A stretch of DNA of 64,000 nucleotides. Origin: an uncultured Isosphaeraceae bacterium (GTDB lineage Bacteria; Planctomycetota; Planctomycetia; Isosphaerales; Isosphaeraceae). Below the pieces are notes generated by a model, which searched no databases, was not told the DNA's origin, and saw only the letters and a list, made by a program, of their open reading frames with translations. Location: positions 186,001-250,000 of the forward strand of contig CAMFLR010000011.1 of the NCBI GenBank assembly GCA_945957605.1, read 5' to 3'. Position numbers and translations under genes: made by a program. Shown piece by piece: positions 31,124 through 46,023 of the stretch; the stretch's first letter is position 1, and each line of letters begins with the position of its first letter.

Positions 31124-31996
31124 TTAGCAGGGATCCCGATTAGGGTCAATCTGATTTTTATTCAAGTCAGCCGAGGCCGCAGCCGACGTCTCAAAGTCGG
31201 CGCAAACTCCCATGTCGTCCACTTTTTCGTCGTGACCATTCGCGGGCGTTTCGACCACTTCTCGCACAATTTCTTGAGCTTTTTCTTCGATTTTGTCGGG
31301 ATCAGGCGGCGCCAACTTGGTCGAGAACGTTCCTGAACTGAGGTCATCCGGTGGAAGCGGCTGATCATCAACCAGCACTGGCGGGCCGACGACATCGCCC
31401 CCCTTCTGCCTCGATTTGTAGAACTTGTAGAACCGATGCAAGAGCCACCCAGCGATCGCCAGAGCGATCCCCCAGGTGATCATCCCCTGCCAGTGCCTGA
31501 TCTGTTCCGTCGCCTTTTCGATCTGAAACGCGAACAGATACCCGATGCCGAACATCAGTGTCGTGCTGAATGTCGCTGCGCAGAGGTCAGTAATAAACAG
31601 GTTGAAAGCGGGCAGCTTGAGAATTCCGGCCGTGAGATACGCTGCCGTTCTGAATCCGACTGCGAACCGGCCGAGAATGAGAATCTTGATTCCATGCCGG
31701 CGGAAGTATCCTTTGATTTGTGTTTCGCGCGCCTTGGTGAGAAACTTCCGCGTCATTCGGAACGAGAGGACCTTCTCACCATAAAAATAGCCAATGAAGT
31801 AAACGACAAAATCGCCGACGATGACGCCGATGAGGCATGAAGCGAACGCGAGCGGCCACCAGATCGTCTCTTTACGGGACAGCACGGCGGCGAGAATGAT
31901 CGGCACCTCTTCCGGCACTGGCAGACCAAGGCCGCCGAGCACGAGAACGAGGAAGAATCCGACGTAACCAAGATGTGCAACAAGATCTTCCGTCAA
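31124..31996 (-). CDS. DedA/SNARE-associated family membrane protein with long acidic tail
   Basis: About 290 residues from TTG 31996, which has GGGAG 6 nt upstream; an ATG at 32065 would add 23 non-membrane residues. The DedA core runs from VAHLGYVGFFLVLVLGGLGL, then PVPEE, to residue 200, with GDFVVYFIGYFYGEKVL, GRFAVGFRTAAYLTAG and FNLFITDLCAATFST. DedA proteins are inner-membrane lipid (undecaprenyl-phosphate or phosphatidylethanolamine) transporters or flippases. The tail after residue 210 is acidic, Pro-rich and probably disordered. Divergent from the first TPR gene. Its 5' end and promoter are duplicated near 38.3-38.6 kb. Confidence 0.88.
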   Translation of the reverse strand: MTEDLVAHLGYVGFFLVLVLGGLGLPVPEEVPIILAAVLSRKETIWWPLAFASCLIGVIVGDFVVYFIGYFYGEKVLSFRMTRKFLTKARETQIKGYFRRHGIKILILGRFAVGFRTAAYLTAGILKLPAFNLFITDLCAATFSTTLMFGIGYLFAFQIEKATEQIRHWQGMITWGIALAIAGWLLHRFYKFYKSRQKGGDVVGPPVLVDDQPLPPDDLSSGTFSTKLAPPDPDKIEEKAQEIVREVVETPANGHDEKVDDMGVCADFETSAAASADLNKNQIDPNRDPC

Positions 31997-32242
31997 AACC
32001 GACTCCCGACCCGCACACTCAAACGGCTCGAACCCGCGAGCCCCTCGCACGCCCCTTGGTACCATATCGCGCGTGGGGCGTCAAAGTGGCCAGACCCGTC
32101 CAGCCTCGCAAATTCAACCTGTCAGCCACCTATCATAAATCAGTTCGCGTATTAGGGTAGTCGCTTCCTGGGGGCGAGTTATTGGTTCGTTACGATTTTT
32201 TGTTTGGTAAGGATCAAGATATCACGTAGCCTTTGATTCCAG
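31906..32242. repeat. Parent copy of the dedA 5'/promoter duplication
   Basis: This stretch (dedA codons about 4-30, its start and the divergent promoter region) aligns with 38265-38568. Shared blocks include GACGAG/AACGAG, ACCAAGATGT, GCACACTCAAAC, TCGAACC-GCGAGCCCCT, CGTCCAGCCT-GCAAATTC and ATCATAAATCAGT-CGCG. Confidence 0.85.
32221..32242 (+). promoter_or_regulatory. Conserved box upstream of TPR gene 1
   Basis: ATCACGTAGCCTTTGATTCCAG ends 44 nt before ATG 32287. Similar boxes end 40 nt before TPR genes 2 and 4. Could be a promoter core or operator. Confidence 0.45.
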
Positions 32243-32286
32243 GAGCAGCCGGAACGATCGCCCTATCCTAATTTCAGGAAGCGGTG

Positions 32287-34836
32287 ATGAAATCTCCAGG
32301 AATCGGCGGAGTTGCCGTGGTCCTTTTGTTCGGCTGGGCAGCACACTCGCCGGCCGAAGACTTGTTGATGTCGGAATCGAGCGAGAACGCAAAGCCGACG
32401 GACATCGTACGACTAGTGAAATCCAGCCTTGTCGGAGACTGGCAAGGCCGCATCGTATTTCTATGGCCTGGAACTGAGCGGATCGCCGCGGTCCCTTACT
32501 CCCCACGCCCTTCAACTCCTGGTTCGATCGATCTCGCGCTCTACGAAGTGCAAGAGACTGATGGTTTTTGGCTCAAAGTCAAAACGACCACCGACGCAGC
32601 TCAAAGTGCCAATAGACTAACCGACGCGGGCCGCGGATGGGTCCGCATCAGCGACGTGCTCCCCAGCGAAACGGCAGCCGAAATCTTGCTGTCTCGGATT
32701 CAGAAAAAGCCCGAGCCGCGACTCTATCTCTTGTTGAGCCAGGTTCACGTAGACGCAGGAGACTTGCCAAGATCCATCGCCGATTTGACAGCGGCGATTC
32801 AACTCTGGCCCGAAGATGCAAGTTTGCGTCGTCGACGCGGGCACTCGCACGCGTTTGGCAAGGACTTCCCAAGTGCGATCAACGACTTCGACGAAGCCGT
32901 TCGTCTTGGAGACAAGAGCGCGGAGATATTCAAAGAGCGCGGCGAAGCATATCGAAGGAACGATGATTACGAAAACGCGATCTCTGACTTCGATAGGGCG
33001 ATCGATCTGAATCCAAACGACGCCCTTTGCTATTTCTTCCGGGGCCGACTCAAACGCGATTTAGACCGAGATCAGGAGGCGATTGCCGATTTCAGTGAAG
33101 CGATACGCATCGCGCCGAAGTACGAACTCGCCCGACACGAGCGAGGGAAGTTGCGGTATGAAACGAGACAATATGACCTTGCGATCGCTGATTTCGACGT
33201 CGCAATCGCGGGTGGCAATTCATCCGCCCACGTGGATCGCGGCAAAGCATGGTACTATAAACAAAATTACACAAAAGCGATCGCCGACTTCGACAAAGCA
33301 CTCGGTGTTCCCGCGAGCGATGCGGAAGCGATGACTTGGCGCGGGGCTACGTATGCCAATCTTAACGACCTCGACAACGCGTTTGCCGATCTCAACATGA
33401 CCATTTGGAATCACCCGGATTATGCAACCGCTTACTTGACGCGTGCAGTTCTTTGGGAGCAAAAGAAAGAGCGTACCAAGGCGATTGCCGACTACACGCA
33501 GTACATTCGCCTCAGTCCCGACGACCTCGTGGGTTACAAGCGTCGTGCAAAGGTCCTCATTCAACAATCTGAATACAATCTCGCCATCGCCGATTTGAAT
33601 GAGGCGATCAAACTCGACTCTGAAGATTGGGATCTCTTCGCCGCTCGCGGCAACTGCTATTTCAGTTTGAAGGAATACGACAAAGCTGCCGCCGACTACT
33701 CCGAAGCCCTTCAACGCAATCCAAATTCAGCAAGACTTCATGGCGAGATCGCAAACTGCCACGACTTAACAGGGCGACACGAAGCGGCGCTTCGAGAATC
33801 TAACGAAGCGGTCCGGTTGAGTTCAAAAGATGCTCTTCTACGAATCGCGCGAGGTAGCGTCCTGTTTCGACTTGGGAAGAGCGACCAGGCTCTCGCCGAT
33901 CTTGACGAAGCCGTTCGACTCGCCCCCAACTCGTACGACGCCCTTTCGTTCCGAGCGCAGATTTATGTCGAACGAAACGAGCACAAAAAGGCGATCGACG
34001 ACTTCACCACGATGATACGCCTTGCGCCCTCGCCAGCTGATGCCCTCTCTGCCCGTGCGAGTGCCTGGAGTGCCCAAGGCGATAACGCGAACGCCATTCT
34101 TGACCTCACCGCGGCGATACGACTCAAACCCGATGATGCGAACCTGCTCCTCACGCGTGCCCTTCAGTGGGCTTCTGTTGAAAAACCCGAAATGGAGCTC
34201 GCGGATCTGGACGAAGTCATCCGGCTCAGTCCTGAAATCACCGACGCCTACCAACTCCGCGGACACATTTGGCTCGACGCGCGAATCTTCGACAGGGCGA
34301 TTGAAGACTTCACTCGCGCGCTGCGAATCGATCCCAGGCACACGGCAAGTTACTCCGGCCGCGCCCGCGCATGGCTGGCCAAAGGCGATATGAATCGAGC
34401 CCGCGACGACGCTGATGCGATTGTCAAATTCAATCCCGAGTCGGCCGATGCACTCGTCGAACGTGCCGAATGCCTTGGATATTTGCACGATTATAAGAAC
34501 GCGATTCTTGACCTCGAGCATGCAATAAAAATCGACCAAAAAAACGCCGTCGCGACAGGAGGTCTTGCAACGATTTTGGCCGCTGCATCTGACGCGGAAT
34601 TTCGCGACGGCAAGCGTTCGCTTGAACTCGCAACCAGGGCATGCGATCTCGCTGGCGACCAAGGCCTCCATTACGAGGGTATCCTCGCAGCCGCCTATGC
34701 AGAGCTCGGAGACTTTGCGAAAGCGATCGAGGCTCAGCAAAAGGCTGTTGCCGCTGCCAGCGCAGCAAGGGAAAGACGCGAAGCCGAAAGGACGCTTCAA
34801 CTCTATCGAGGCCGGAAACCGTTTCGCTTGCCCTGA
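32287..34836 (+). CDS. Secreted SH3-like/TPR repeat protein 1
   Basis: 849 residues. A signal peptide (KSPGIGGVAVVLLFGWAA) is followed by an SH3-like module, about residues 45-135 (PGTERIAAVPYSP, DGFWLKVKTTT, GRGWVRISDVLP). Then come about 20 tandem tetratricopeptide repeats of 34 residues to the C-terminus, with units such as AIADFSEAIRIAPKYELARH and YDLAIADFDVAIAGG. TPR superhelices bind other proteins; this one would do so outside the cytoplasm. ATG 32287 follows AGGAAG. It is closest in its N-terminal half to the truncated TPR gene 3. The codon mix is visibly less GC-rich than in flanking genes. Partner and role unknown. Confidence 0.88.
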   Translation: MKSPGIGGVAVVLLFGWAAHSPAEDLLMSESSENAKPTDIVRLVKSSLVGDWQGRIVFLWPGTERIAAVPYSPRPSTPGSIDLALYEVQETDGFWLKVKTTTDAAQSANRLTDAGRGWVRISDVLPSETAAEILLSRIQKKPEPRLYLLLSQVHVDAGDLPRSIADLTAAIQLWPEDASLRRRRGHSHAFGKDFPSAINDFDEAVRLGDKSAEIFKERGEAYRRNDDYENAISDFDRAIDLNPNDALCYFFRGRLKRDLDRDQEAIADFSEAIRIAPKYELARHERGKLRYETRQYDLAIADFDVAIAGGNSSAHVDRGKAWYYKQNYTKAIADFDKALGVPASDAEAMTWRGATYANLNDLDNAFADLNMTIWNHPDYATAYLTRAVLWEQKKERTKAIADYTQYIRLSPDDLVGYKRRAKVLIQQSEYNLAIADLNEAIKLDSEDWDLFAARGNCYFSLKEYDKAAADYSEALQRNPNSARLHGEIANCHDLTGRHEAALRESNEAVRLSSKDALLRIARGSVLFRLGKSDQALADLDEAVRLAPNSYDALSFRAQIYVERNEHKKAIDDFTTMIRLAPSPADALSARASAWSAQGDNANAILDLTAAIRLKPDDANLLLTRALQWASVEKPEMELADLDEVIRLSPEITDAYQLRGHIWLDARIFDRAIEDFTRALRIDPRHTASYSGRARAWLAKGDMNRARDDADAIVKFNPESADALVERAECLGYLHDYKNAILDLEHAIKIDQKNAVATGGLATILAAASDAEFRDGKRSLELATRACDLAGDQGLHYEGILAAAYAELGDFAKAIEAQQKAVAAASAARERREAERTLQLYRGRKPFRLP

Positions 34837-34951
34837 TGTCATTGCGAATTGGCGAGAAAAACTCTGCACAATTACCACTGTGCGGTCGTTTCGTGCGCGC
34901 GTGTTGGGATCTGAAACAACTCAACGGTTTTCGTTGGGAGACAGGCTGCCG

Positions 34952-34972
34952 CTTATGTATCCTTTGATACAG
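34952..34972 (+). promoter_or_regulatory. Conserved box upstream of TPR gene 2
   Basis: CTTATGTATCCTTTGATACAG ends 40 nt before ATG 35013. It contains TATC-CTTT-GATA, a small inverted repeat, and matches the boxes before TPR genes 1 and 4. Confidence 0.45.
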
Positions 34973-35012
34973 GGCCGGCGAAAAGTCCCTCCTTTCACCA
35001 TGCGGGGCGACG

Positions 35013-37559
35013 ATGAATATGCGGCGAATCGCCTTTGTCTCGGTGGTCGTGTTATTCGCTCGTGAGGCGATCTCGCTTGCCCAGAGCCCGTTCGATCGCG
35101 TTCCCGATGGGTCCCAAAGCCCGTTCAGCACTCTCCCGACTAAAGTTAATCTGGATGATCTGTGGAAAGGCCGCGAAATCGTCCTCATGCCTGGTACCGA
35201 GATCCAGGCTGCTGTGCCATTCGCCAAAGGTCATCCCATTGCTGACTTGTCTATGCTGTCGACTTACCGCGTGGTTCGTAGCAAGGTGCTCTGGCTCGAG
35301 ATCGAAAAGCGAACTGTTTCTGGCTCGCCGTTCGACGATCATTGGGAGAAGAGTGGATGGGTTCCCATCGGCAGCGTGATCGAATTTGACTCAGCGATCG
35401 AAAGCTTAACAACGCTGATTAAGAGAAAGCCCGATGTGCAGCTTTTTACCTTGCGGAGTCAGGTTTACTTTAGATCGGGCAAGCTTGCAGAGAGCATGGC
35501 TGATCTTGGCGAGGCGATAAAACTTTCACCGGAAAATATCCCAGTGCGCTTGTTGCGGGCGAGTTTCGGCAGGTCAGAAGCAGAAGACCAGGAAAGATGC
35601 ATAGGTGACCTGACGGAAGTGATTCGACTTGGGCACAAGACTGCTGACGTCTACAAGCGACGCGCCCTCATGTACGAGGCGAATGGTGACTACGACGAGG
35701 CAATTGCCGACCTCGATCAGGCCATTGAACTTGAACCCAAACAGTCCGAACATTACTTCGCGCGCAGCCGTGTCAGACGTGCGCAAGAGGAAAATGATAA
35801 AGCGCTTGCCGACCTCGAAGAGGTGATCCGAATCAATCCCAAAATGACGCAAGCCTACCACGAACGCGGACAGCTAAGACTCGACGCGGGACAATACGAT
35901 CTCGCGATCGAGGATTTTGGGGTCGCCATCCGGAGGGGCTATGAGTATTCCTATTTTTCGCGTGGTGAAGCTTGGTACGAGAAAGAAAACTATTCGAAAG
36001 CCATCGACAATTTCGACAATGCCATCGGATTCGATTCCGATGACGCGAAATCATTTGTCTGGCGCGCAGCGGCACGCCGCAATCTCAAGGAATACGACAA
36101 GGCGCTCGCTGATCTGAATCGGGCGATCGAGATCGATCCAGATTATGAATCCTCCTATCATACGCGTGGAACCGTGTGGCGAGAAAAGAAGGAATGGGAC
36201 AAGGCACTGGCTGATTTTTCTCAATATATTCTCCTCGCTCCTACAGACTCGAATGGATATATCGAGCGAGCCAATGTCTATGATGATAAAGGAGAGTGGG
36301 CCAAGGCGATCGCCGATTTGAATGAGTCGATCAAGATCAGTTCTGATGAGTGGGGCACATACTACGATCGTGCTCGTTGCTATGCGAGTCTGGGTGCATG
36401 CGAAAAGGCGATTGCCGACTATTCCATCGCAATTCGACTCGCACCCGATGAGCACAAACCACACTGGGGGCGAGCCCTCTGCCATAGTATCTTGGGAAAT
36501 CGACGCGAAGCGACGATCGACTTCAACGAGGCAGTTCGGCTGAAACCCGATGTAGGGCTGCTTCGTATGGATCGCGGTCGTTTTCTTTTGGGCCTCGGAG
36601 AACTCTCAAAGGCAATTGGTGAACTTGACGAGACAATCAAGCTCGCTCCCGACATGCGTGAAGCATTCAACATGCGAGGTCAGATTCACACAACTCGCAG
36701 AGCACATAAGAAGGCGATTGAAGATTTCACGGCGGCGATAAAAATGGATCCCAGCCAGGCTATGACGATCTGGTGGCGGGCCACGGTCTGGGAAGCGTCG
36801 CGCGACGATAAACGCGCGATACTTGACCTGATCGCTGCGGTTCGACTCGACCCTGAAAACGCCGATTTGCTATTCGCGCGAGCACGAGTTTGGTACGCGA
36901 TCGGCAACCCCGAACTCGCCATCGCGGATTACGACACGGCCATTCGAAACGATCCAAGCCAAGCCGACGCGTACTACGGCCGAGGTATGATCAGGTTCGA
37001 TCAGAAGCGTTTCGATCAGGCGATAAGCAACTTCGACACTGTTATTCGACTCGCTCCAGCGCACACCGATGGGTACGCCGCGCGTGCCCGAAGTTGGCAT
37101 GAAAAGGGCCAACAAGACCGAGCGATTGCCGATGCGAATGCGATTGTCAAGTTTGGCCCCAAGTCGGCCACCACTTACTTGAAACGCGGCCAATGTTTTA
37201 TTGATATTCACGAATACGACAATGCAATCCTTGATTTTCAACACGCCGAAAAGTTCGCTCGCAAGAAGTCAGATGCGATCGAGGACCATGAGTCGCTACT
37301 ATCTCTCCTGGGTGCTGCGAACCGTCATGAGATTAACTGGGTCGCAGAGCTCGCCGGGCTGAGTGATTTCGCGCTATACGGGACATGGAATTCTGGACCA
37401 AGCATATTCGCGCCTGTCCGTGGACGAACTGGGGACCTGGCGAGAGCGATCGAATCCCAGCAGAAAGCTATCTCAGCCGTCGGAACGATTGACGAGAAAT
37501 TGGTCGCAAAAAAATCACTTCAAGCCGGCTCGGAATGCAAACCGCATTTCCTACCGTAA
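35013..37559 (+). CDS. Secreted SH3-like/TPR repeat protein 2
   Basis: 848 residues. The signal peptide MNMRRIAFVSVVVLFAREAI ends near LAQ. The SH3-like module (LMPGTEIQAAVPFAKG, VLWLEIEKRTV, SGWVPIGSVIE) is followed by about 20 TPR units, e.g. YDEAIADLDQAIELEPKQSE and AIADLNESIKISSDEWGTYY. It aligns end to end with TPR protein 4, including the SPFDRVPDGSQSPF/DPFSPFLDAGQNPF opening and the KVNL...D-W motif. The last repeat before the C-terminus (about residues 750-830) is more diverged than in proteins 1 and 4. Its own promoter box suggests separate transcription. Confidence 0.88.
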   Translation: MNMRRIAFVSVVVLFAREAISLAQSPFDRVPDGSQSPFSTLPTKVNLDDLWKGREIVLMPGTEIQAAVPFAKGHPIADLSMLSTYRVVRSKVLWLEIEKRTVSGSPFDDHWEKSGWVPIGSVIEFDSAIESLTTLIKRKPDVQLFTLRSQVYFRSGKLAESMADLGEAIKLSPENIPVRLLRASFGRSEAEDQERCIGDLTEVIRLGHKTADVYKRRALMYEANGDYDEAIADLDQAIELEPKQSEHYFARSRVRRAQEENDKALADLEEVIRINPKMTQAYHERGQLRLDAGQYDLAIEDFGVAIRRGYEYSYFSRGEAWYEKENYSKAIDNFDNAIGFDSDDAKSFVWRAAARRNLKEYDKALADLNRAIEIDPDYESSYHTRGTVWREKKEWDKALADFSQYILLAPTDSNGYIERANVYDDKGEWAKAIADLNESIKISSDEWGTYYDRARCYASLGACEKAIADYSIAIRLAPDEHKPHWGRALCHSILGNRREATIDFNEAVRLKPDVGLLRMDRGRFLLGLGELSKAIGELDETIKLAPDMREAFNMRGQIHTTRRAHKKAIEDFTAAIKMDPSQAMTIWWRATVWEASRDDKRAILDLIAAVRLDPENADLLFARARVWYAIGNPELAIADYDTAIRNDPSQADAYYGRGMIRFDQKRFDQAISNFDTVIRLAPAHTDGYAARARSWHEKGQQDRAIADANAIVKFGPKSATTYLKRGQCFIDIHEYDNAILDFQHAEKFARKKSDAIEDHESLLSLLGAANRHEINWVAELAGLSDFALYGTWNSGPSIFAPVRGRTGDLARAIESQQKAISAVGTIDEKLVAKKSLQAGSECKPHFLP

Positions 37560-37728
37560 CGGCAGAATTGGTTGACCACCACTGACGCATAATATCGAAT
37601 TCTCTCTTCGCGATCGGCGCGAGAAACAATCAATGTGGCGATTCGCTACTCGCTGAATATCGAGGACTGGGCAGATTTCGGTTTGCGGCACAACGTGTAT
37701 TCTTATGCATTTTCATTGGAAAGCGATT

Positions 37729-38406
37729 ATGAAACTTTGGGATAACTTTGGGCTTGCTGCAATCATCTTGTTTGGTTCGGTGACCATCGCGCCGGGCCAG
37801 GAAGTGGAAACGCCAATTGCGAGGGAGATGGAAGAGCCGCTCGACCTAGCGAAGCTCACAAAAATCAGCATTTTCGGCGACTGGGAAGATCGTGAGATCA
37901 TGCTCAGACCGGGGACCGAGTTGATCGCTCCGATTCCTTTTCTCTCATTGCCACCATCTCCCGATTGGATTGAGACAGCAACATTCGAAGTCGAGAGAAT
38001 GGAAGGCTTTTGGCTCAAGGTTAACGTTTCCGCCTATCCAGCTCGTCGCGACAACGATCCGACGTCGTATTTCGGCGGATGGGTTCACGTCGCCAACGTT
38101 CTACCAATCGAGACTGCGGCCGAAACACTCACGAAACAAATCGAGGCCAAGCCTGAAGCTCGGTTGTTTCACTTGAGGAGTTACGTTCACCTTCGTCATG
38201 GCGACCTGCCCGAATGCATCGACGACTTGACCGAGGCGATTCGACTTCAGCCGAAGAATACTCAAAGCATCTCCTGGCAACGGCAGGCCGAGGCCTCCGA
38301 GCAAGATGACGAGCCCAACGTGACCAAGATGTCCCGCGAATGTAGCCCCAGGCCAGCACACTCAAACAGTTCGAACCTGCGAGCCCCTGATTCCTATCGT
38401 GCGTGA
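37729..38406 (+). pseudogene. Truncated TPR protein 3 (paralogue of protein 1)
   Basis: The first ~180 residues match TPR protein 1: signal peptide (LWDNFGLAAIILFGSVTIAP), SH3-like module (RPGTELIAPIPF, EGFWLKVNVS, GGWVHVANVLPIETAAETL) and the first TPR (HGDLPECIDDLTEAIRLQPK). At about 38262 the homology stops and the frame runs into a reversed dedA 5' fragment, ending at TGA 38406 after an unrelated tail. So 18 or more repeats are lost. The stub still has a start, signal peptide and one repeat and could be expressed as a 225-residue protein. Start set by alignment with MKSP of protein 1. Confidence 0.82.
38254..38334 (-). pseudogene. dedA 5' fragment (decayed duplicate)
   Basis: On the minus strand this reads GHLGHVGLVILLGGLGLPLP, matching AHLGYVGFFLVLVLGGLGLP of the intact DedA with a short deletion. 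The start-codon region is changed and the rest of dedA is absent. The duplicated non-coding part continues to 38568. Confidence 0.8.
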
Positions 38407-38568
38407 TTCATTAAATTAGCCAGACTCGTCCAGCCTTGCAAATTCGACTTCAAAACCAACCATCATAAATCAGTCCGCGAATTAGGGCAGTCGCTTTCAC
38501 ACGACGGAATATTGGCCCATCGGTTTTTAATTGGGAAGGATTCAGATATCATGTAAACTTTGATCCAG
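38265..38568. repeat. Second copy of the dedA 5'/promoter region
   Basis: Collinear with 31906-32242 over about 300 bp, in the same orientation. It now supplies the upstream region of TPR gene 4. Many small substitutions and some indels show that it is not recent. Confidence 0.85.
38548..38568 (+). promoter_or_regulatory. Conserved box upstream of TPR gene 4
   Basis: ATCATGTAAACTTTGATCCAG ends 40 nt before ATG 38609, in the same relative place as the boxes of TPR genes 1 and 2. It lies at the end of the duplicated dedA/TPR promoter segment. Confidence 0.45.
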
Positions 38569-38608
38569 AACGCAGCGAATTCTCGTCCATATTTCGTGTG
38601 AGGCGACG

Positions 38609-41155
38609 ATGAGTTTCCTACGAGTGGCCATAAACGCAATTATTATCCTTATAACTTGTGAGGCTATTGCACTCGCACAGGACCCGTTCAGTCCCTTTTT
38701 GGATGCAGGCCAGAACCCATTTGACGAAAAGCCAGCAAAAGTCAATCTGCTTGACGCTTGGGAGAGCCGTTCGGTCATCCTCCTGCCGGGAACGAAGATC
38801 GAGGCGGCGATTCCGTTTGCGGAAGGGCGACCGTCGTCGGACGAATTCAACCTCCCGGTCTACCGCGTTGCGACGACCGAGGGATTTTGGCTTAAGATCG
38901 ACAGGATAGTTGGATCGACGTCTCCATTTGACGACCCAAAATGGGAACCGAGCGGACTGGTCCCAACTTGTAATGTGCTTGAGCTCGATACCGCAATTGA
39001 GACCCTGACTCGCCAACTCGAGTCGAAGCCGGATGCGCGACTCTATCAATTGCGGAGTCAGGTTTATCTCAAATCAGGTCTTTACGACCTGAGCCTCGAA
39101 GACCTTAACGAGGCGATAAAACTCGCTGCCGATGACGCTCAATTGCACCGCCACCGAGCGTGGCTTCACCGGATTTTACATGAATATGAGGATGCGGTTG
39201 ACGACCTAAGCGAAGCCATTCGACTTGGGGCCAAAACCGCGGAGGTTTACAGGGAGCGCGCCGAAATTTATGAGTTCGACGACCGACCAGACGAAGCGAT
39301 TTCCGACTTCGATCGCGCCATCGATCTCGAGCCCAAAAATGCGATGCACTATTACTCTCGCGGACAGATTAGGCGTCAAAAGGGCGAACCCGACAAGGCG
39401 CTCGCGGACTTCAACGATGCAATTCGACTCGATCCCGACCTGAGAGGAGCCTATCACTTGCGCGGCGAATTGAGGGCCGATGCAGGACAATACGACATGG
39501 CGATCGCTGATTTTGATACCACCATCGATAAAGGTTACCAATTCGCATACTTTGCACGGGGTAAGGCGTGGTACGAAAAGAATAATAATCTCCAGGCAAT
39601 TGCAGATTTCACAAAGGCTCTAGAGCTATCGAGGAACGACTCAGAAATACTCACTTGGCGTGCTGCGACATACCGGAATCTCAAAGAAAACAAGAAGGCT
39701 TTCGCTGATCTCGACCGCGCGATAGGCATCGACTCCGAATACGCTGCAGCCTATAGCACGCGGGCCAGCGTCTGGAGAGAGCAGAAGGAGTGGGACAAGG
39801 CAATCGTTGACTATTCTCACTACATTCAACTTGCTCCCGCGGATCCGGAAGCGTACGGAAATCGTGCCAGCGTTTTTGACGAGATAGGTGAGTGCGCAAA
39901 GGCGATCGCCGACTTGACCGAGGCGATCAAGTTCGGCTCAGAGGACTGGGATCATTTCTATCTCCGTGGCCGCTGCCGCTTCCATCTAAAAGACTATACA
40001 CAAGCAAGCGGCGATTATTCTGCCGCGATCCGGCTCGCCCCCAATGAGGCACAGCCCTATTGGGGACGAGCGATGTGTCATGATGTCCTGGGGCGCAAAC
40101 AGGAAGCGATCGCTGATTTCGACGAAGCGGTCCGGTTGAAACCCCGGGACTCTTCGCTTCGCGTTGAACGAGGGCGCGCTCTGTTTGAGCGCGGTGAACT
40201 TTCGAAGGCGGTCGCTGACCTCGACGAAGCGGTCAGGCTCTCTCCCGAGTCACGCGAGGGCTTCGAGTTGCGTGGGCAGATTCGCACTCAGCAAAGGATG
40301 TTCGCTAAGGCCTTTGACGATTTCACAGCGGCGCTGAAGTTGGATCCTGATCAAGCCACAACATTGTCACGGCGAGCGTACGCGTTGGAAGGAATGGGCG
40401 ACCTCCAACGCGCGATTCTCGACTTCATCGCCGCGGTTCGACTCAATCCCGATGACGCCGGCACGCTATTCTCACGAGCCCGCGTTTGGCGAAAGCTTGA
40501 TAAGCTTGAGATGGCTGTCGCGGACTACGATGCGTTAATTCGAATCAACCCGGGTGCTACCGAAGCCTACTACGAACGAGGGCTGATCCAGCTAGATCAG
40601 AAACGGGCAGACCTTGCAATCGACGATTTCAACATTTTACTTCAAGCCAATCCGACTCATGCCGATGGTTACGGAGCCCGCGCTCGGGCGTGGAATGCGA
40701 AAGGGGAGCGTGCCCGGGCGATTGCTGAAGCCGACGCGATCGTCAAGTTCTGTCACAATAACCCCAACGCTCTCTTCGTGCGCGGCCAATGCTTCATGGA
40801 TCTGCATGAATACGAGAAGGCGATTCTTGATTTTAAACACACCATTGATGTCGACCCGATGAACGTGAACGCGTACGCGAGTTATGCGCTGCTGCGTGCC
40901 GCCGCGTCCGATGCCAAGTACCGCAATGGCCATTCGGCGGTCTTTCTTGCAAAAGCCGCCAATTTTTCGATGGGCGGCTCCCGATTTTCAGTGTTCAGCA
41001 GCCTCGCCGCCGCTTATGCCGAGACCGGTGACTTTACAAGTGCGATCAAGGCCCAACAAGACGCAATCCCCGAGGCTAGAACCATCAAAGATAAGCAAGA
41101 AGCGCACAGACGGATTCAACTCTACGTTGATAGCAAGCCATATCGATTGCCCTGA
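38609..41155 (+). CDS. Secreted SH3-like/TPR repeat protein 4
   Basis: 848 residues, same length as protein 2 and aligned with it throughout. The signal peptide MSFLRVAINAIIILITCEAI ends near ALAQ. The SH3-like module (LLPGTKIEAAIPFAEG, EGFWLKIDRIV, SGLVPTCNVLELD) precedes about 20 TPR units, e.g. YDMAIADFDTTIDKGYQ and AIADLTEAIKFGSEDWDHFY. The C-terminus ends SKPYRLP, like RKPFRLP of protein 1 and CKPHFLP of protein 2. GAGGCGACG precedes the ATG. The upstream region comes from the dedA duplication while the coding part pairs with gene 2, so gene 4 is a mosaic. Confidence 0.88.
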   Translation: MSFLRVAINAIIILITCEAIALAQDPFSPFLDAGQNPFDEKPAKVNLLDAWESRSVILLPGTKIEAAIPFAEGRPSSDEFNLPVYRVATTEGFWLKIDRIVGSTSPFDDPKWEPSGLVPTCNVLELDTAIETLTRQLESKPDARLYQLRSQVYLKSGLYDLSLEDLNEAIKLAADDAQLHRHRAWLHRILHEYEDAVDDLSEAIRLGAKTAEVYRERAEIYEFDDRPDEAISDFDRAIDLEPKNAMHYYSRGQIRRQKGEPDKALADFNDAIRLDPDLRGAYHLRGELRADAGQYDMAIADFDTTIDKGYQFAYFARGKAWYEKNNNLQAIADFTKALELSRNDSEILTWRAATYRNLKENKKAFADLDRAIGIDSEYAAAYSTRASVWREQKEWDKAIVDYSHYIQLAPADPEAYGNRASVFDEIGECAKAIADLTEAIKFGSEDWDHFYLRGRCRFHLKDYTQASGDYSAAIRLAPNEAQPYWGRAMCHDVLGRKQEAIADFDEAVRLKPRDSSLRVERGRALFERGELSKAVADLDEAVRLSPESREGFELRGQIRTQQRMFAKAFDDFTAALKLDPDQATTLSRRAYALEGMGDLQRAILDFIAAVRLNPDDAGTLFSRARVWRKLDKLEMAVADYDALIRINPGATEAYYERGLIQLDQKRADLAIDDFNILLQANPTHADGYGARARAWNAKGERARAIAEADAIVKFCHNNPNALFVRGQCFMDLHEYEKAILDFKHTIDVDPMNVNAYASYALLRAAASDAKYRNGHSAVFLAKAANFSMGGSRFSVFSSLAAAYAETGDFTSAIKAQQDAIPEARTIKDKQEAHRRIQLYVDSKPYRLP

Positions 41156-41313
41156 CCACGAAATCAAGCCATTTCTCCGTAGATTTCGAGTCATTAAGTC
41201 GACGTCGCACGACCACGAAACAGTTGTATGTCGCCTCATGCGAGATTACGATCAAACAATTGCTGGCGAAATGAGCCGGCGTCTCATGATTGCAACGCTC
41301 TCGGAGCCTCGTC

Positions 41314-44300
41314 GTGCCCAGATTTGCTCGCGCGATTTTCATCGCTGCCATCGTTACTGTGTTTGGTCTCCCCTCCGCCGTTAGTGCGCAGCAGAAGACC
41401 TATTCTCAAGCGCCCGAGGTCGCTCCTTCAGAAGAACGCGGCACGGCGGCGGCCCCAGTAGCGGCCTTGAAGCCCGTTAATATCAACCTCGAAGCCGGTC
41501 CCAGGCCGAGTTGGATCTGGGGAGCGGCGCCCGAGAAGATTTATCTGCTCAAGACCACATTTGAAGGCGGTTCGACGGCCGCGCGGCTCAAGGCGTCGTG
41601 CGATAACGCCATGAAGGTGTTCGTCAACGGCAAGGAAGTCACCGCCAGCGAGGAGTGGGAACAGCCCGTCGATGTTGATGTGCAAAAGCATATCAAGCCG
41701 GGAAAGAACGAACTCGTCGCCGAAGTGAACAACGAGGGGAACGTCGCGGGGTTTGTGCTCAAACTTGGGCTCAAGGATGCCAGCGGCGCGGTTCGGTATG
41801 TTGTCACTGATGCATCGTGGACGGCCGCTGAGAAGCGTGATCCAAAGGCAACAACCGCGGTGAAGTTGATCGCTCCGCTCGGCGCGAGCCCCTGGGGCGA
41901 TGTGCTCAGCAAGCCGGCGTCGCCGCTGACGTCGAAGCGCGGCGTTTTCGAGGTTCCGGCTGGCTTCAAGGTCGAGCGGCTGTTCACCGTACCCAAGGAT
42001 GAACTCGGCTCGTGGGTAAGTTGCGCCCTCGATAACAAGGGCCGGTTGATCGTCAGCGATCAAGGGAATTTCGGCCTCTGTCGGATCACTCCAGCGCCGC
42101 TTGATGGCAAGGGTGAAACGAAGGTCGAGCGACTGAGCTTGCCGACTGCTATCTCAGGCGCGATGGGTTTGCTCTACGCGTTCGATAGCCTGTATGTCGA
42201 TGGCAGCGGCGCGAAGGGGAACGGGATTTACCGTCTACGCGATACCAATGGCGATGATCAGTATGATGCTGTTGATTTCCTGAAGACGATCGCTGGCGGC
42301 GGCGAGCACGGCCCGCACGGATTGCGACTTTCGCCCGACGGCAAGTCGATCTATATCGTCGCTGGCAATCACACGCCATTGCCGCAGGGTATCGAAGCCA
42401 GCCGCGTGCCGCGGAACTGGAATGAAGATCATTTGTTGCCTCCCCAATGGGATGCCAACGGCCACGCCCGCGGAATTCTCGCGCCGGGCGGCTGGATCGC
42501 CAAGTTCGACGCCGACGGCAAGAACTGGGAAATCATGAGCACCGGTTATCGCAATAGCTATGATATTGCGTTCAACGGTGACGGCGACCTGTTCGCGTAC
42601 GACTCCGACATGGAATGGGACATGGGGATGCCCTGGTATCGCCCCACGCGAGCGGTTCATGCGACGAGCGGAAGCGAATTCGGCTGGCGGAGCGGAACCG
42701 GTAAGTGGCCCACCTATTACATCGATAGCCTGCCGCCGCTTGTGAATATCGGCCCTGGCTCGCCCGTCGGCGTGACGTTCGGATATGGCGCGAAATTCCC
42801 GGCCAAGTATCAGAAGGCACTTTATCTCTGCGACTGGACGTTCGGTACGATCTATGCGCTTCACCTCGAGCCTGAAGGCTCGACCTACCGCGCCGAGAAA
42901 ACCGAATTCCTCTCACGCACTCCCCTACCCTTGACGGACATTGTCGTCGGCGCAGATGGGGCGCTCTACTTCACGGTCGGCGGGCGTGGAACGCAGTCAG
43001 AATTTTTCCGCGTGACTTACACAGGGACAGAATCGACTGCACCCATCGATCGGAAAGAAACAGCTCACGCGGAGCAGCGAGAACTGCGACGGTCGATCGA
43101 GCAATATCACAGCAAGAAAGCAAGTGAGAAAGAGATTCAGGAGAACATTCTTCCGTATCTTGAGCACAAAGATCGTTTCATCCGTTATGCCGCGCGAGTT
43201 GCGCTCGAACATCAGCCAGCGGCGGTCTGGCAAGATCGCGTACTGGCGATCAAGCCGGTCGAGGGTTTCCTTACGGGAGCGGTCGCGCTGGCGCATCAAG
43301 GCGACAAATCGCTTCAGCCGAAGGTGATCGCCCGGCTTGAAGACATTCTCTTCTCCGCGCTTCCGGAAAGCCAAAAGCTTGATCTCTTACGCGTATGGTC
43401 GCTGGTCTTCATGCGCATGGGAGCACCCGACGCTGCCACGTCTGCGCGTTTGGCCAAAGCCTACGACGGCTATTTCCCAGCCGATTCCGATTTCGTGAAT
43501 CGCGAGTTGTGCGGATTCCTCATCTATCTCAAATCGCCAACGGTGGTGGGCAAAACGATTGCTCTGCTCGCCAAGCTCGACGCGACGAATGCGGAGTCGA
43601 TGTCCGACTTGCTTGCGCGTAATCCAGGATATGGTGGATCGATCGCGCGAATGATTGCCACGCGACCTGATGCGCAAAAGTTACATTACGCGTTTGTGCT
43701 TCGAAATGCGACGGCCGGCTGGAATCTTGACCTGCGCAAGCAATATTTCACCTTCTTGCGTCGCGCTCATGAGTGGGCCGGTGGCGCGAGTTTTGACGGG
43801 TTCCTGAACAACATCGAAAAGGACGCGTTTGAAAACGCAACCGATGCCGAGCGGTTGGCGATTGAAGCCACCGGTGCTCGGACACCCTACAAAGCTCCCG
43901 TGCTTCCCAAGCCGCAAGGGCCTGGGCATGCGTGGAAGAAGGAAGATGTGCTTGCACTGACTGGCACCAAGCTCAAGTCGGGCCGGAGCTTTGAAAATGG
44001 CCAGCGTACATTTGCCGCGGCGCGTTGCGTTGTTTGCCACCGATTCGGTGGCGAAGGTGGCGCGACGGGTCCTGACCTGACGCAAGCCGCCGGGCGATTC
44101 AGCGCGAAAGACCTTGCGGAGGCGATTCTCGAACCCAGCAAGATTATTTCTGATCAATACCGTGCGTCGGTCATTGAAACCGATAGCGGCAAGGTGATCA
44201 CCGGGCGAGTTGTGAATGAAGTCGGCGACAACATCGTCGTCGTCACCGATCCCGAAGATTCGAGCAAGGTTGTCGAGCTTTCGAAGAAGTCGGTCGAAGG

Positions 44301-44433
44301 AATGAAGCCGTCGCCGGTCTCGCTCATGCCGGAACGATTGCTCGATCCGCTGAATGAGAACGAGGTGCTCGACTTGCTGGCGTACGTCCTCTCACGAGGC
44401 GATGCCAACGATCCGATGTTCCGCAAGCGTTGA
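41314..44433 (+). CDS. Secreted PVC-type heme-binding dehydrogenase with HEAT region and cytochrome c domain
   Basis: About 1,039 residues. The signal peptide (FARAIFIAAIVTVFGLPSAV) is followed by a galactose-binding-like domain (about 55-175: FVNGKEVTASEEWEQPVDVD). A membrane-bound-dehydrogenase-type beta-propeller follows (about 210-580: FEVPAGFKVERLFTVP, GEHGPHGLRLSPDGKSIYIV, SEFGWRSGTGKWP). Then comes a HEAT-like helical region, and a C-terminal heme c domain with ARCVVCHRFGGEGG and GPDLTQAAGRFSAKDLAEAI. This architecture is typical of planctomycete and verrucomicrobial proteins implicated in sugar oxidation. GTG 41314 follows GGAG by about 9 nt and begins right at the signal peptide; the upstream TTG start is less likely. 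Substrate unknown. Confidence 0.9.
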   Translation: MPRFARAIFIAAIVTVFGLPSAVSAQQKTYSQAPEVAPSEERGTAAAPVAALKPVNINLEAGPRPSWIWGAAPEKIYLLKTTFEGGSTAARLKASCDNAMKVFVNGKEVTASEEWEQPVDVDVQKHIKPGKNELVAEVNNEGNVAGFVLKLGLKDASGAVRYVVTDASWTAAEKRDPKATTAVKLIAPLGASPWGDVLSKPASPLTSKRGVFEVPAGFKVERLFTVPKDELGSWVSCALDNKGRLIVSDQGNFGLCRITPAPLDGKGETKVERLSLPTAISGAMGLLYAFDSLYVDGSGAKGNGIYRLRDTNGDDQYDAVDFLKTIAGGGEHGPHGLRLSPDGKSIYIVAGNHTPLPQGIEASRVPRNWNEDHLLPPQWDANGHARGILAPGGWIAKFDADGKNWEIMSTGYRNSYDIAFNGDGDLFAYDSDMEWDMGMPWYRPTRAVHATSGSEFGWRSGTGKWPTYYIDSLPPLVNIGPGSPVGVTFGYGAKFPAKYQKALYLCDWTFGTIYALHLEPEGSTYRAEKTEFLSRTPLPLTDIVVGADGALYFTVGGRGTQSEFFRVTYTGTESTAPIDRKETAHAEQRELRRSIEQYHSKKASEKEIQENILPYLEHKDRFIRYAARVALEHQPAAVWQDRVLAIKPVEGFLTGAVALAHQGDKSLQPKVIARLEDILFSALPESQKLDLLRVWSLVFMRMGAPDAATSARLAKAYDGYFPADSDFVNRELCGFLIYLKSPTVVGKTIALLAKLDATNAESMSDLLARNPGYGGSIARMIATRPDAQKLHYAFVLRNATAGWNLDLRKQYFTFLRRAHEWAGGASFDGFLNNIEKDAFENATDAERLAIEATGARTPYKAPVLPKPQGPGHAWKKEDVLALTGTKLKSGRSFENGQRTFAAARCVVCHRFGGEGGATGPDLTQAAGRFSAKDLAEAILEPSKIISDQYRASVIETDSGKVITGRVVNEVGDNIVVVTDPEDSSKVVELSKKSVEGMKPSPVSLMPERLLDPLNENEVLDLLAYVLSRGDANDPMFRKR

Positions 44434-44447
44434 TGATGTTATATGTT

Positions 44448-44483
44448 GGAGGCGTCCTGCCGAATCAAATGCGGGACGCTTCC
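44448..44483 (+). terminator. 13-bp hairpin after the PVC cytochrome gene
   Basis: GGAGGCGTCCTGC pairs with GCGGGACGCTTCC (two G-U pairs) around a 10-nt loop, 14 nt after the stop. It is followed by AT-rich sequence rather than a pure T-run. Confidence 0.6.
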
Positions 44484-44502
44484 AATCTATGAATTATCGT
44501 GT

Positions 44503-44538
44503 TTATTCTGATTTCTGCGAACGCTGCTTGAGTTTGAT
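44503..44538 (-). pseudogene. Relic of an oxidoreductase-like gene 3' end
   Basis: Minus-strand codons read IKLKQRSQKSE followed by TAA. The intact gene ending at 44709 closes with IKPEQRSQKSE and TAA. Of the eight codons that differ, six differ synonymously at the third position. A REPIN-like element separates the two copies. Confidence 0.65.
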
Positions 44539-44547
44539 CGTAGAGGG

Positions 44548-44662
44548 GTAGCCGGGACAACTTGTTGTCCCGGTCCCGAAGGGACAGGAGGATATCGCAA
44601 TCTGTTTGGCGTTGACCTCTTGTGGCTGCGCCACCCGGACAACAAGTTGCCGGGCCACCCAA
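44548..44662. repeat. REPIN-like element, GACAAC family, copy 2
   Basis: The left arm CCGGGACAAC-TT-GTTGTCCCGG is a perfect hairpin; the right arm CCCGGACAAC-AA-GTTGCCGGG is nearly one. The outer end GGCCACCC matches the copy at 1415-1532, which lies in the opposite orientation. The core holds CCTCTTGTGGCTGCGCCACC and GGATATCGC. Confidence 0.72.
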
Positions 44663-44708
44663 TCCTTTCTATTGTTTTGCCCTAACTGCTTAACTTCTAT
44701 CATTGGAA

Positions 44709-45851
44709 TTATTCAGATTTTTGTGAGCGTTGCTCAGGCTTGATCGCCAGTTTGAGCGATTGAATCAGGAAGAAAAAGAGCAGGATCGGCGGGATTGCGT
44801 ACGCGATGTAAATCGTCTGCGGAATGCCGAGCGACGGTCCGGCCATGGCGAGCGGTAGGACGAACAGGATCGACAGCAGGATCATGCAGCCGACTGATGT
44901 CATGATCGTTTTGAAATTATTGGTCTCACTTACTTCTTCATAGTTTAAATCGACCGCTCGTCCGCGTTTCAGTCCTCGCACCACGGCCGATGCGAGTTCC
45001 ATCGCACGCGTGCCGTCGAGCAGGTTAGGACGTTCGATTTCGCCACGTTTTGCTCGCTGCAAGACATCAAAAATGGCTGCGTGTGCGTCCCACGCGACAA
45101 ACTCTTGAGTCGTGCCGTCGGAATGTTGCAGACGCGAGGGGCCAGACCAGTCGGACGCGAGTTCGAGCGTCAGCGTGGCACGTTCGCAGGTCAGGGTGAT
45201 CCGCGACTTTGCGGCGGGCTCGTGAGGAAACAGCCGCATTTCCGCGAGACGTTCGTTGGCACTTTGAAGCTGGACGGTCAGGCTGCGCGTGGGTTCGATA
45301 CCTGGCGGATCGCCGATTGCGTTGACGGTTTTGACTTCGCCGAGGAAGACGCGAGCCACGTCAACCCAGCGTGGGAACGCAAAGTTGGCCAGGTTGGCTG
45401 ACGGCGGATGTTCGTCGCTGGGGGCTTCGATGCGCAGGTTGCGAAATGCGCCAAAGGCATCGCTTGAGAGGGCGTCGCGAAGAGCAATGATTCCAGGGTG
45501 CAGGCGGCCGGGCATGTCAGGGACGACGAGCGCGCCGGTTTCCTCGCGACTGAGAGCGACCTGATAGTAGCCGTCGGCGTTCGTTCCGGGCGGATGCATG
45601 CAGATGACGGCAAGCCCTGCTCCGGCAGCGCGACGGAGCGACTCATCTCGTTCCTGAATTGCACCACCCAGAATCATCAACTCGACGCCGGAAACGGCGA
45701 GTGCGGCTTCAAAGTCCTTGGGGATCGCCAGATCGGGGAAAATCTCGGGGAATCCGGGAAATGCCGCAACGACGACGTGCTCGGTTTGTCCCGACAGCCA
45801 GCGTGCCCAGGAGCGTTCTTCGAGGCCGTCACCCAGTATCAGAATGTTCAT
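44709..45851 (-). CDS. Gfo/Idh/MocA-like oxidoreductase with C-terminal membrane tail
   Basis: About 380 residues. A Rossmann-like N-terminus (MNILILGDGLEERSWARWLS) and GVELMILGGAIQERDESLRRA, then GLAVICMHPP, resemble the Gfo/Idh/MocA dehydrogenase fold. The middle domain (PRWVDVARVFLGEVKTVNAI, HDxx-free) is a weak match to the substrate domain. The protein ends with two hydrophobic helices (SVGCMILLSILFVLPLAMAG and IAYAIPPILLFFFLIQSL), unusual for the family and likely a membrane anchor. The usual EKP catalytic motif is not evident, so activity is uncertain. ATG 45851 starts at the first strand; the frame is open 72 bp further upstream. Confidence 0.65.
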   Translation of the reverse strand: MNILILGDGLEERSWARWLSGQTEHVVVAAFPGFPEIFPDLAIPKDFEAALAVSGVELMILGGAIQERDESLRRAAGAGLAVICMHPPGTNADGYYQVALSREETGALVVPDMPGRLHPGIIALRDALSSDAFGAFRNLRIEAPSDEHPPSANLANFAFPRWVDVARVFLGEVKTVNAIGDPPGIEPTRSLTVQLQSANERLAEMRLFPHEPAAKSRITLTCERATLTLELASDWSGPSRLQHSDGTTQEFVAWDAHAAIFDVLQRAKRGEIERPNLLDGTRAMELASAVVRGLKRGRAVDLNYEEVSETNNFKTIMTSVGCMILLSILFVLPLAMAGPSLGIPQTIYIAYAIPPILLFFFLIQSLKLAIKPEQRSQKSE

Positions 45852-46023
45852 CCAGAGAGTCTCGCGGGCACGATTCGCGCCGTCTCGTAACGGCCAGGCT
45901 CTTCCATGATAGCGAATGGGCAAGCCGGGCGGGATTGACCGCCGGCCAAGTCACGCCGATAATAGGCCAGCTCGGGTTGAAACTGTTGACTGTAAGTGAC
46001 TTGTGGCCGGGGGACTTGGGCCG

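Follow-up and report, generated by a model that had tools for sequence, protein, structure and literature searches.

How did a piece of the 5' end of dedA come to lie between two TPR genes? The window, a stretch of 64,000 nucleotides from an uncultured Isosphaeraceae bacterium, carries dedA on the minus strand (31124–31996) and, beyond it, four TPR genes on the plus strand: TPR1 (32284–34836, 850 aa), TPR2 (35013–37559, 848 aa), TPR3 (37729–38406, truncated) and TPR4 (38609–41155, 848 aa). The product of dedA is a VTT-domain membrane protein (Pfam VTT_dom, E 1.9e-9), and the gene is collinear with its orthologue in G001, a genome of the same genus. When the two are aligned, the G001 orthologue starts at a TTG homologous to the one at 31996, and dedA itself most likely starts at this TTG rather than at the ATG at 32065. 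An upstream start at that ATG would give 23 extra residues, which are missing in G001.

The copied piece is readily recognized. By BLASTN, 31908–32249, which holds about 30 codons of the dedA 5' end and the dedA/TPR1 spacer, matches 38267–38577 (the limits of the copy are approximate) with 236 of 343 positions identical and a pairwise E of 1e-32. A sequence-only reading of this DNA had described 38265–38568 as a decayed copy of 31906–32242, and the match bears it out with slightly revised limits. The similarity is also significant on the scale of the whole 8.8-Mb genome: a search with the source segment returned only itself and the copy (E 7.9e-29, or about 1e-28), and no third copy of the dedA segment was found there. 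In a global alignment, 224 of the 307 paired bases (73%) are identical, with four internal gaps of 3–13 bases. Of the copied piece, dedA coding sequence accounts for only ~89 bp, and the remainder is spacer. The copy is 73% identical to the dedA region of its own genome versus 54% to that of the genus-mate, which indicates that it arose in this lineage.

The genes on either side of the copy encode proteins with a common design. Pfam TPR_1/TPR_2 arrays are found at E 1e-70 or better in TPR1, TPR2 and TPR4, and TPR3 has one weak TPR. The three full-length proteins are collinear over 848–850 aa, with repeat number unchanged, and the predicted structure of TPR4 is a long TPR superhelix of about 20 repeats, mostly at pLDDT >90. 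A hydrophobic N-terminal stretch can be seen by eye in all four proteins and is modelled as an N-terminal helix in TPR3. In TPR1, for example, the architecture would be a signal peptide, an SH3-like domain, and a TPR solenoid. The N-terminal domain, with four or five predicted strands partly at pLDDT 70–90 in the TPR3 and TPR4 models, is putatively SH3-like, to judge from its sequence pattern. Pfam offered nothing credible for it and no SH3 match, and a fold search of the PDB, with TPR3 as the query model, gave no match at E <0.001.

Planctomycete SH3-like/TPR proteins with a resembling N-terminus occur in 20 of 59 relatives. A profile links the N-terminal part of the window proteins to the family in G010 at E 5.6e-15, with the first TPR included in the match. 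One secreted member from that genome (G010 L079:7429-8886) has in common with the window genes a putative signal peptide and a TPR array, the N-terminal pattern G-T...Y-V...W-L...G-W-V, and a comparable C-terminal segment with KPYR/KPFR at its end, but it is 485 aa long whereas the window proteins have 848–850 aa. The N-terminal domain of the window genes has also diverged from that of the family, with no match outside this genome in 392 genomes of the phylum. The TPR proteins may be regarded as divergent members of a known planctomycete type with a putative signal peptide, a putative SH3-like domain and about 20 TPRs, and the domain make-up of the full-length proteins suggests exported scaffolds that bind protein partners.

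The genome has four TPR genes of this clade, all at this locus, and a scan of genome contigs with the N-terminal alignment gave TPR-level matches only. Among the 392 sampled phylum genomes, the close clade was found in this one only; relatives, the family and the phylum sample otherwise yielded nothing but distant family members. The suggestion that this is a self-expanding family was not sustained: there are only four genes, at one locus, collinear at 848–850 aa, and they have no close relatives in the 392 genomes. Third-position GC is 57–59% in the TPR genes (32284–41155) versus 65–70% in most neighbours, a lower value that fits an outside origin without proving it. The C-terminal module of TPR2 is diverged, its last ~150 residues (37240–37430) being 27% identical to TPR4 where TPR1 and TPR4 share 42%. 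A frameshift was considered as the cause, and other frames did not obviously restore the sequence.

Relationships among the four genes are best read from their N-terminal parts. Over 187 alignment columns, the grouping TPR1+TPR3 / TPR2+TPR4 leads by 28 log units with protein data and by 24 with codon positions 1+2, and both alternative quartets are rejected on either data set (AU p<0.001). TPR3 groups with TPR1, and TPR2 with TPR4, just as had been proposed. In the repeat part, where TPR3 has no repeats and only the TPR2/TPR4 pairing is comparable, identity is 49% for TPR2/TPR4, 47% for TPR1/TPR4, and 42% for TPR1/TPR2. TPR4 is closest to TPR2 over most of its length, with the exception of the last ~150 residues: TPR2 is diverged there, and TPR4 is closer to TPR1. 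The pairing of the genes fits the doubling of an A-B unit to A-B-A-B.

The copied segment has a different age. Four-fold sites are identical at 9/40 between TPR1 and TPR3, and at 12/43 (N-terminal) and 62/163 (repeats) between TPR2 and TPR4, so that identity in both pairs is 22–38%, with 26% expected from composition alone. Between the copy and its source, 54 of 79 positions are identical in the spacer 31997–32088 and 14 of 22 at dedA third positions, and both differ from the four-fold sites of TPR1/TPR3 (Fisher, p 2e-6 and p 2e-3, respectively). Because the silent sites of the TPR pairs are saturated whereas ~70% identity persists in the spacer copy, the dedA/promoter copy appears to be a later, separate event. 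Possible selection on part of the spacer would make the copy appear younger than it is; however, the dedA part, useless as dedA, has decayed similarly (77% identity, as against 68% in one part of the spacer and 73% in the other), so selection is not likely to be the cause. Unless the spacer is under strong selection, the copy would be younger than both gene duplications. The earlier view that a two-gene cassette was duplicated and then rearranged stands in part: the A-B doubling is retained, and the placing of the promoter/dedA copy within that duplication is not (Fisher p about 1e-6).

The two ends of the copy were joined in different ways. On the left, the homology of TPR3 to TPR1 and TPR4 stops at 38262–38265, near codon 180, which agrees with the description of a TPR gene cut after about 180 residues and abutted by the copy. 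The last ~46 codons of TPR3 run through the dedA copy, and the gene is without 80% of the protein. No remnant of the lost C-terminus was found in the window outside known genes. Codon ~180 meets dedA with no real homology, and only AGAAT-like microhomology could be seen by eye. The right join, on the other hand, lies inside a core common to TPR1, TPR2 and TPR4, and hence in homologous sequence. This core, conserved in position and sequence upstream of the three genes, reads TTGG(T/G)A, 17–18 bases, TA(GCC/TCC/AAC)T, then TTGAT and CAG. On the plus strand, it takes the form TTGGTA-N17-TAGCCT-TTGATTCCA upstream of TPR1 (32204–32241) and TTGGGA-N17-TAAACT-TTGATCCAG upstream of TPR4 (38518–38577). 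The latter interval is a switch zone, in which TPR2/TPR4 similarity starts at 38518 and TPR1/TPR4 upstream similarity stops at ~38577: all sequence before the core is TPR1-like, and the leader after it is TPR2-like. The sequence just upstream of TPR3 has no match to the TPR1 promoter. A generic sigma-70 scan did not call the shared cores, which their conservation and place suggest to be promoters. The claim that TPR4 has a promoter descended from that of TPR1 is supported for the sequence immediately upstream of TPR4, with a presumptive promoter role.

Comparison with relatives adds an event that the sequence-only reading had missed, namely the apparent insertion of a block between dedA and its ancestral neighbour. 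G001 is collinear with the window at 21–32 kb and 44.7–48.5 kb, without the TPR block between, and its dedA and the 44.7–45.9 kb gene (44712–45887, minus strand) are neighbours ~100 bp apart. The same adjacency without the block is found in G021 and G002, which belong to other genera. Since dedA lies beside the 44.7-kb gene in these three relatives from three genera, the whole 12.6-kb block (32089–44711) is extra in this genome and is best read as an insertion in this lineage. The homology with G001 ends at ~32088, inside the copied segment, and because the copy spans this insertion point it was made once the block was there.

The block also holds a related, large gene (41374–44430) whose best homologues (62–63%) are in other genera, in unrelated places; the genus-mate has no more than a weaker match. 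No shared neighbourhood was found for it (41.4–44.4 kb) among homologues in several relatives. Just inside the right border of the block, at 44546–44660, a repeated intergenic element occurs as an inverted pair of ~115 bp. Its motif CCGGACAACAAGTTG has about 90 matches genome-wide with at most one mismatch, compared to 3 for a reversed control. The genome has eight Y1-transposase (RAYT-like) matches, one of which (C13:6329-6646) adjoins copies of the repeat.

We think that the locus is probably a scar, left in an older array of four genes by an ectopic rearrangement that was late and one-sided, whether it was completed in one step or in two. From the tree, an SH3-like/TPR gene would long ago have given an A-B pair and then A-B-A-B (TPR1-TPR2-TPR3-TPR4), and the array would have come to its present position between dedA and the upstream neighbour in this lineage. 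It is highly unlikely that the arrangement in this genome is instead the ancestral one and that the relatives have lost the block: the TPR duplications do seem to be as old as the split from the genus-mate or older, but in three relatives of three genera dedA and its neighbour are adjacent, with no block between them, and no other genome sampled in the phylum has the TPR clade. Later, ~0.31 kb of dedA start and dedA/TPR1 spacer would have been joined into the TPR3-TPR4 interval, with the right join in the core shared by TPR1, TPR2 and TPR4 and an illegitimate left join inside TPR3 at codon ~180. This would have removed the old spacer between TPR3 and TPR4 together with about 2 kb of TPR3, and given TPR4 a TPR1-type upstream region, from whose promoter it is probably transcribed. 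The sequence-only reading would have had the four genes and the copy stem from a single duplication of a two-gene cassette, with dedA start and promoter included, followed by rearrangement. The tree shape (TPR1+TPR3 / TPR2+TPR4) and the presence of a dedA fragment speak for such an origin, which we nonetheless hold to be improbable, as it is contradicted by the contrast in age between saturated TPR silent sites and a fragment ~70% identical; moreover, the fragment lies on the downstream side of TPR3 rather than before it, and what directly precedes TPR3 is unlike the TPR1 promoter. As for how the late rearrangement took place, a single paste in which homology anchored one end only would give the observed product. 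The same product would result from a head-to-tail tandem duplication with its ends in dedA and TPR3, followed by a deletion of what lay between the copied promoter and the one that TPR4 already had, and we consider this two-step route credible while stopping short of calling it probable. The same-orientation TPR3-to-dedA join is exactly the junction of a head-to-tail duplication, and the shared promoter core supplies homology for the deletion; yet the extra TPR genes left no remnant, and the present data fit both routes. The locus is absent from close relatives, and hence no intermediates are seen in these or in the 392 phylum genomes.

The late rearrangement leaves the question of what became of TPR3. 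Its predicted structure comprises a partial small barrel and a single TPR, and confidence is low for the new tail. The gene probably still specifies a short, secreted SH3-like protein that has a single TPR and ends in a novel tail of ~46 residues. The probability that the frame has stayed open by chance since the copy is ~0.01 at 0.17 substitutions per site and ~0.25 at 0.05 substitutions per site, an estimate that hinges on the assumed branch length and on the truncation being as old as the copy. An open frame that is improbable under neutral decay favours a retained short protein without proving it. It is possible, but rather unlikely, that TPR3 is as dead as the dedA copy and that both are neutral debris. 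This would be in keeping with the missing 80% of the protein, with the decay and indels of the dedA fragment, and with the lack of a conserved core upstream of TPR3. Against it, TPR3 is intact over ~180 codons where about 2–3 stops and ~2 frameshifts are expected at 0.17 substitutions per site, and second positions are kept above third relative to TPR1, although most of this signal is older than the truncation. A bolder proposal, which we regard as a long shot, is that the truncation made a new functional gene, with TPR3 kept as a free SH3-like/one-TPR secreted protein whose tail comes from antisense dedA, while a divergent dedA/TPR promoter drives TPR4. If true, a single rearrangement yielded both a possible competitor protein (TPR3) and a rewired scaffold (TPR4).

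The feature is real, but of an ordinary kind among bacterial genome rearrangements, with a neat outcome. It offers a clear and relatively datable case of a promoter region copied between paralogues, with a neighbouring gene paying the cost, in a phylum whose many TPR proteins are poorly understood. It also shows that the gene tree of a locus and a promoter copied within it can bear witness to separate events, and the case has modest practical value as a caution against reading tandem arrays as single duplications. In homology-facilitated illegitimate recombination, one join is homologous, the other forms without homology, and stranded gene pieces are left behind (PMC3240628); this process has also been discussed for orphan gene remnants (PMC5361080). 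The locus described here has the same two types of join and a stranded gene piece, but unlike in that process the donor comes from elsewhere in the same locus, and the likeness in mechanism is drawn from the product only. Spontaneous tandem duplication with short-microhomology borders has been found to activate genes in laboratory constructs (PMC11111574). Common to those constructs and to the two-step route is that a head-to-tail duplication can put a gene under another promoter, whereas in the present case the duplicated genes would since have disappeared.
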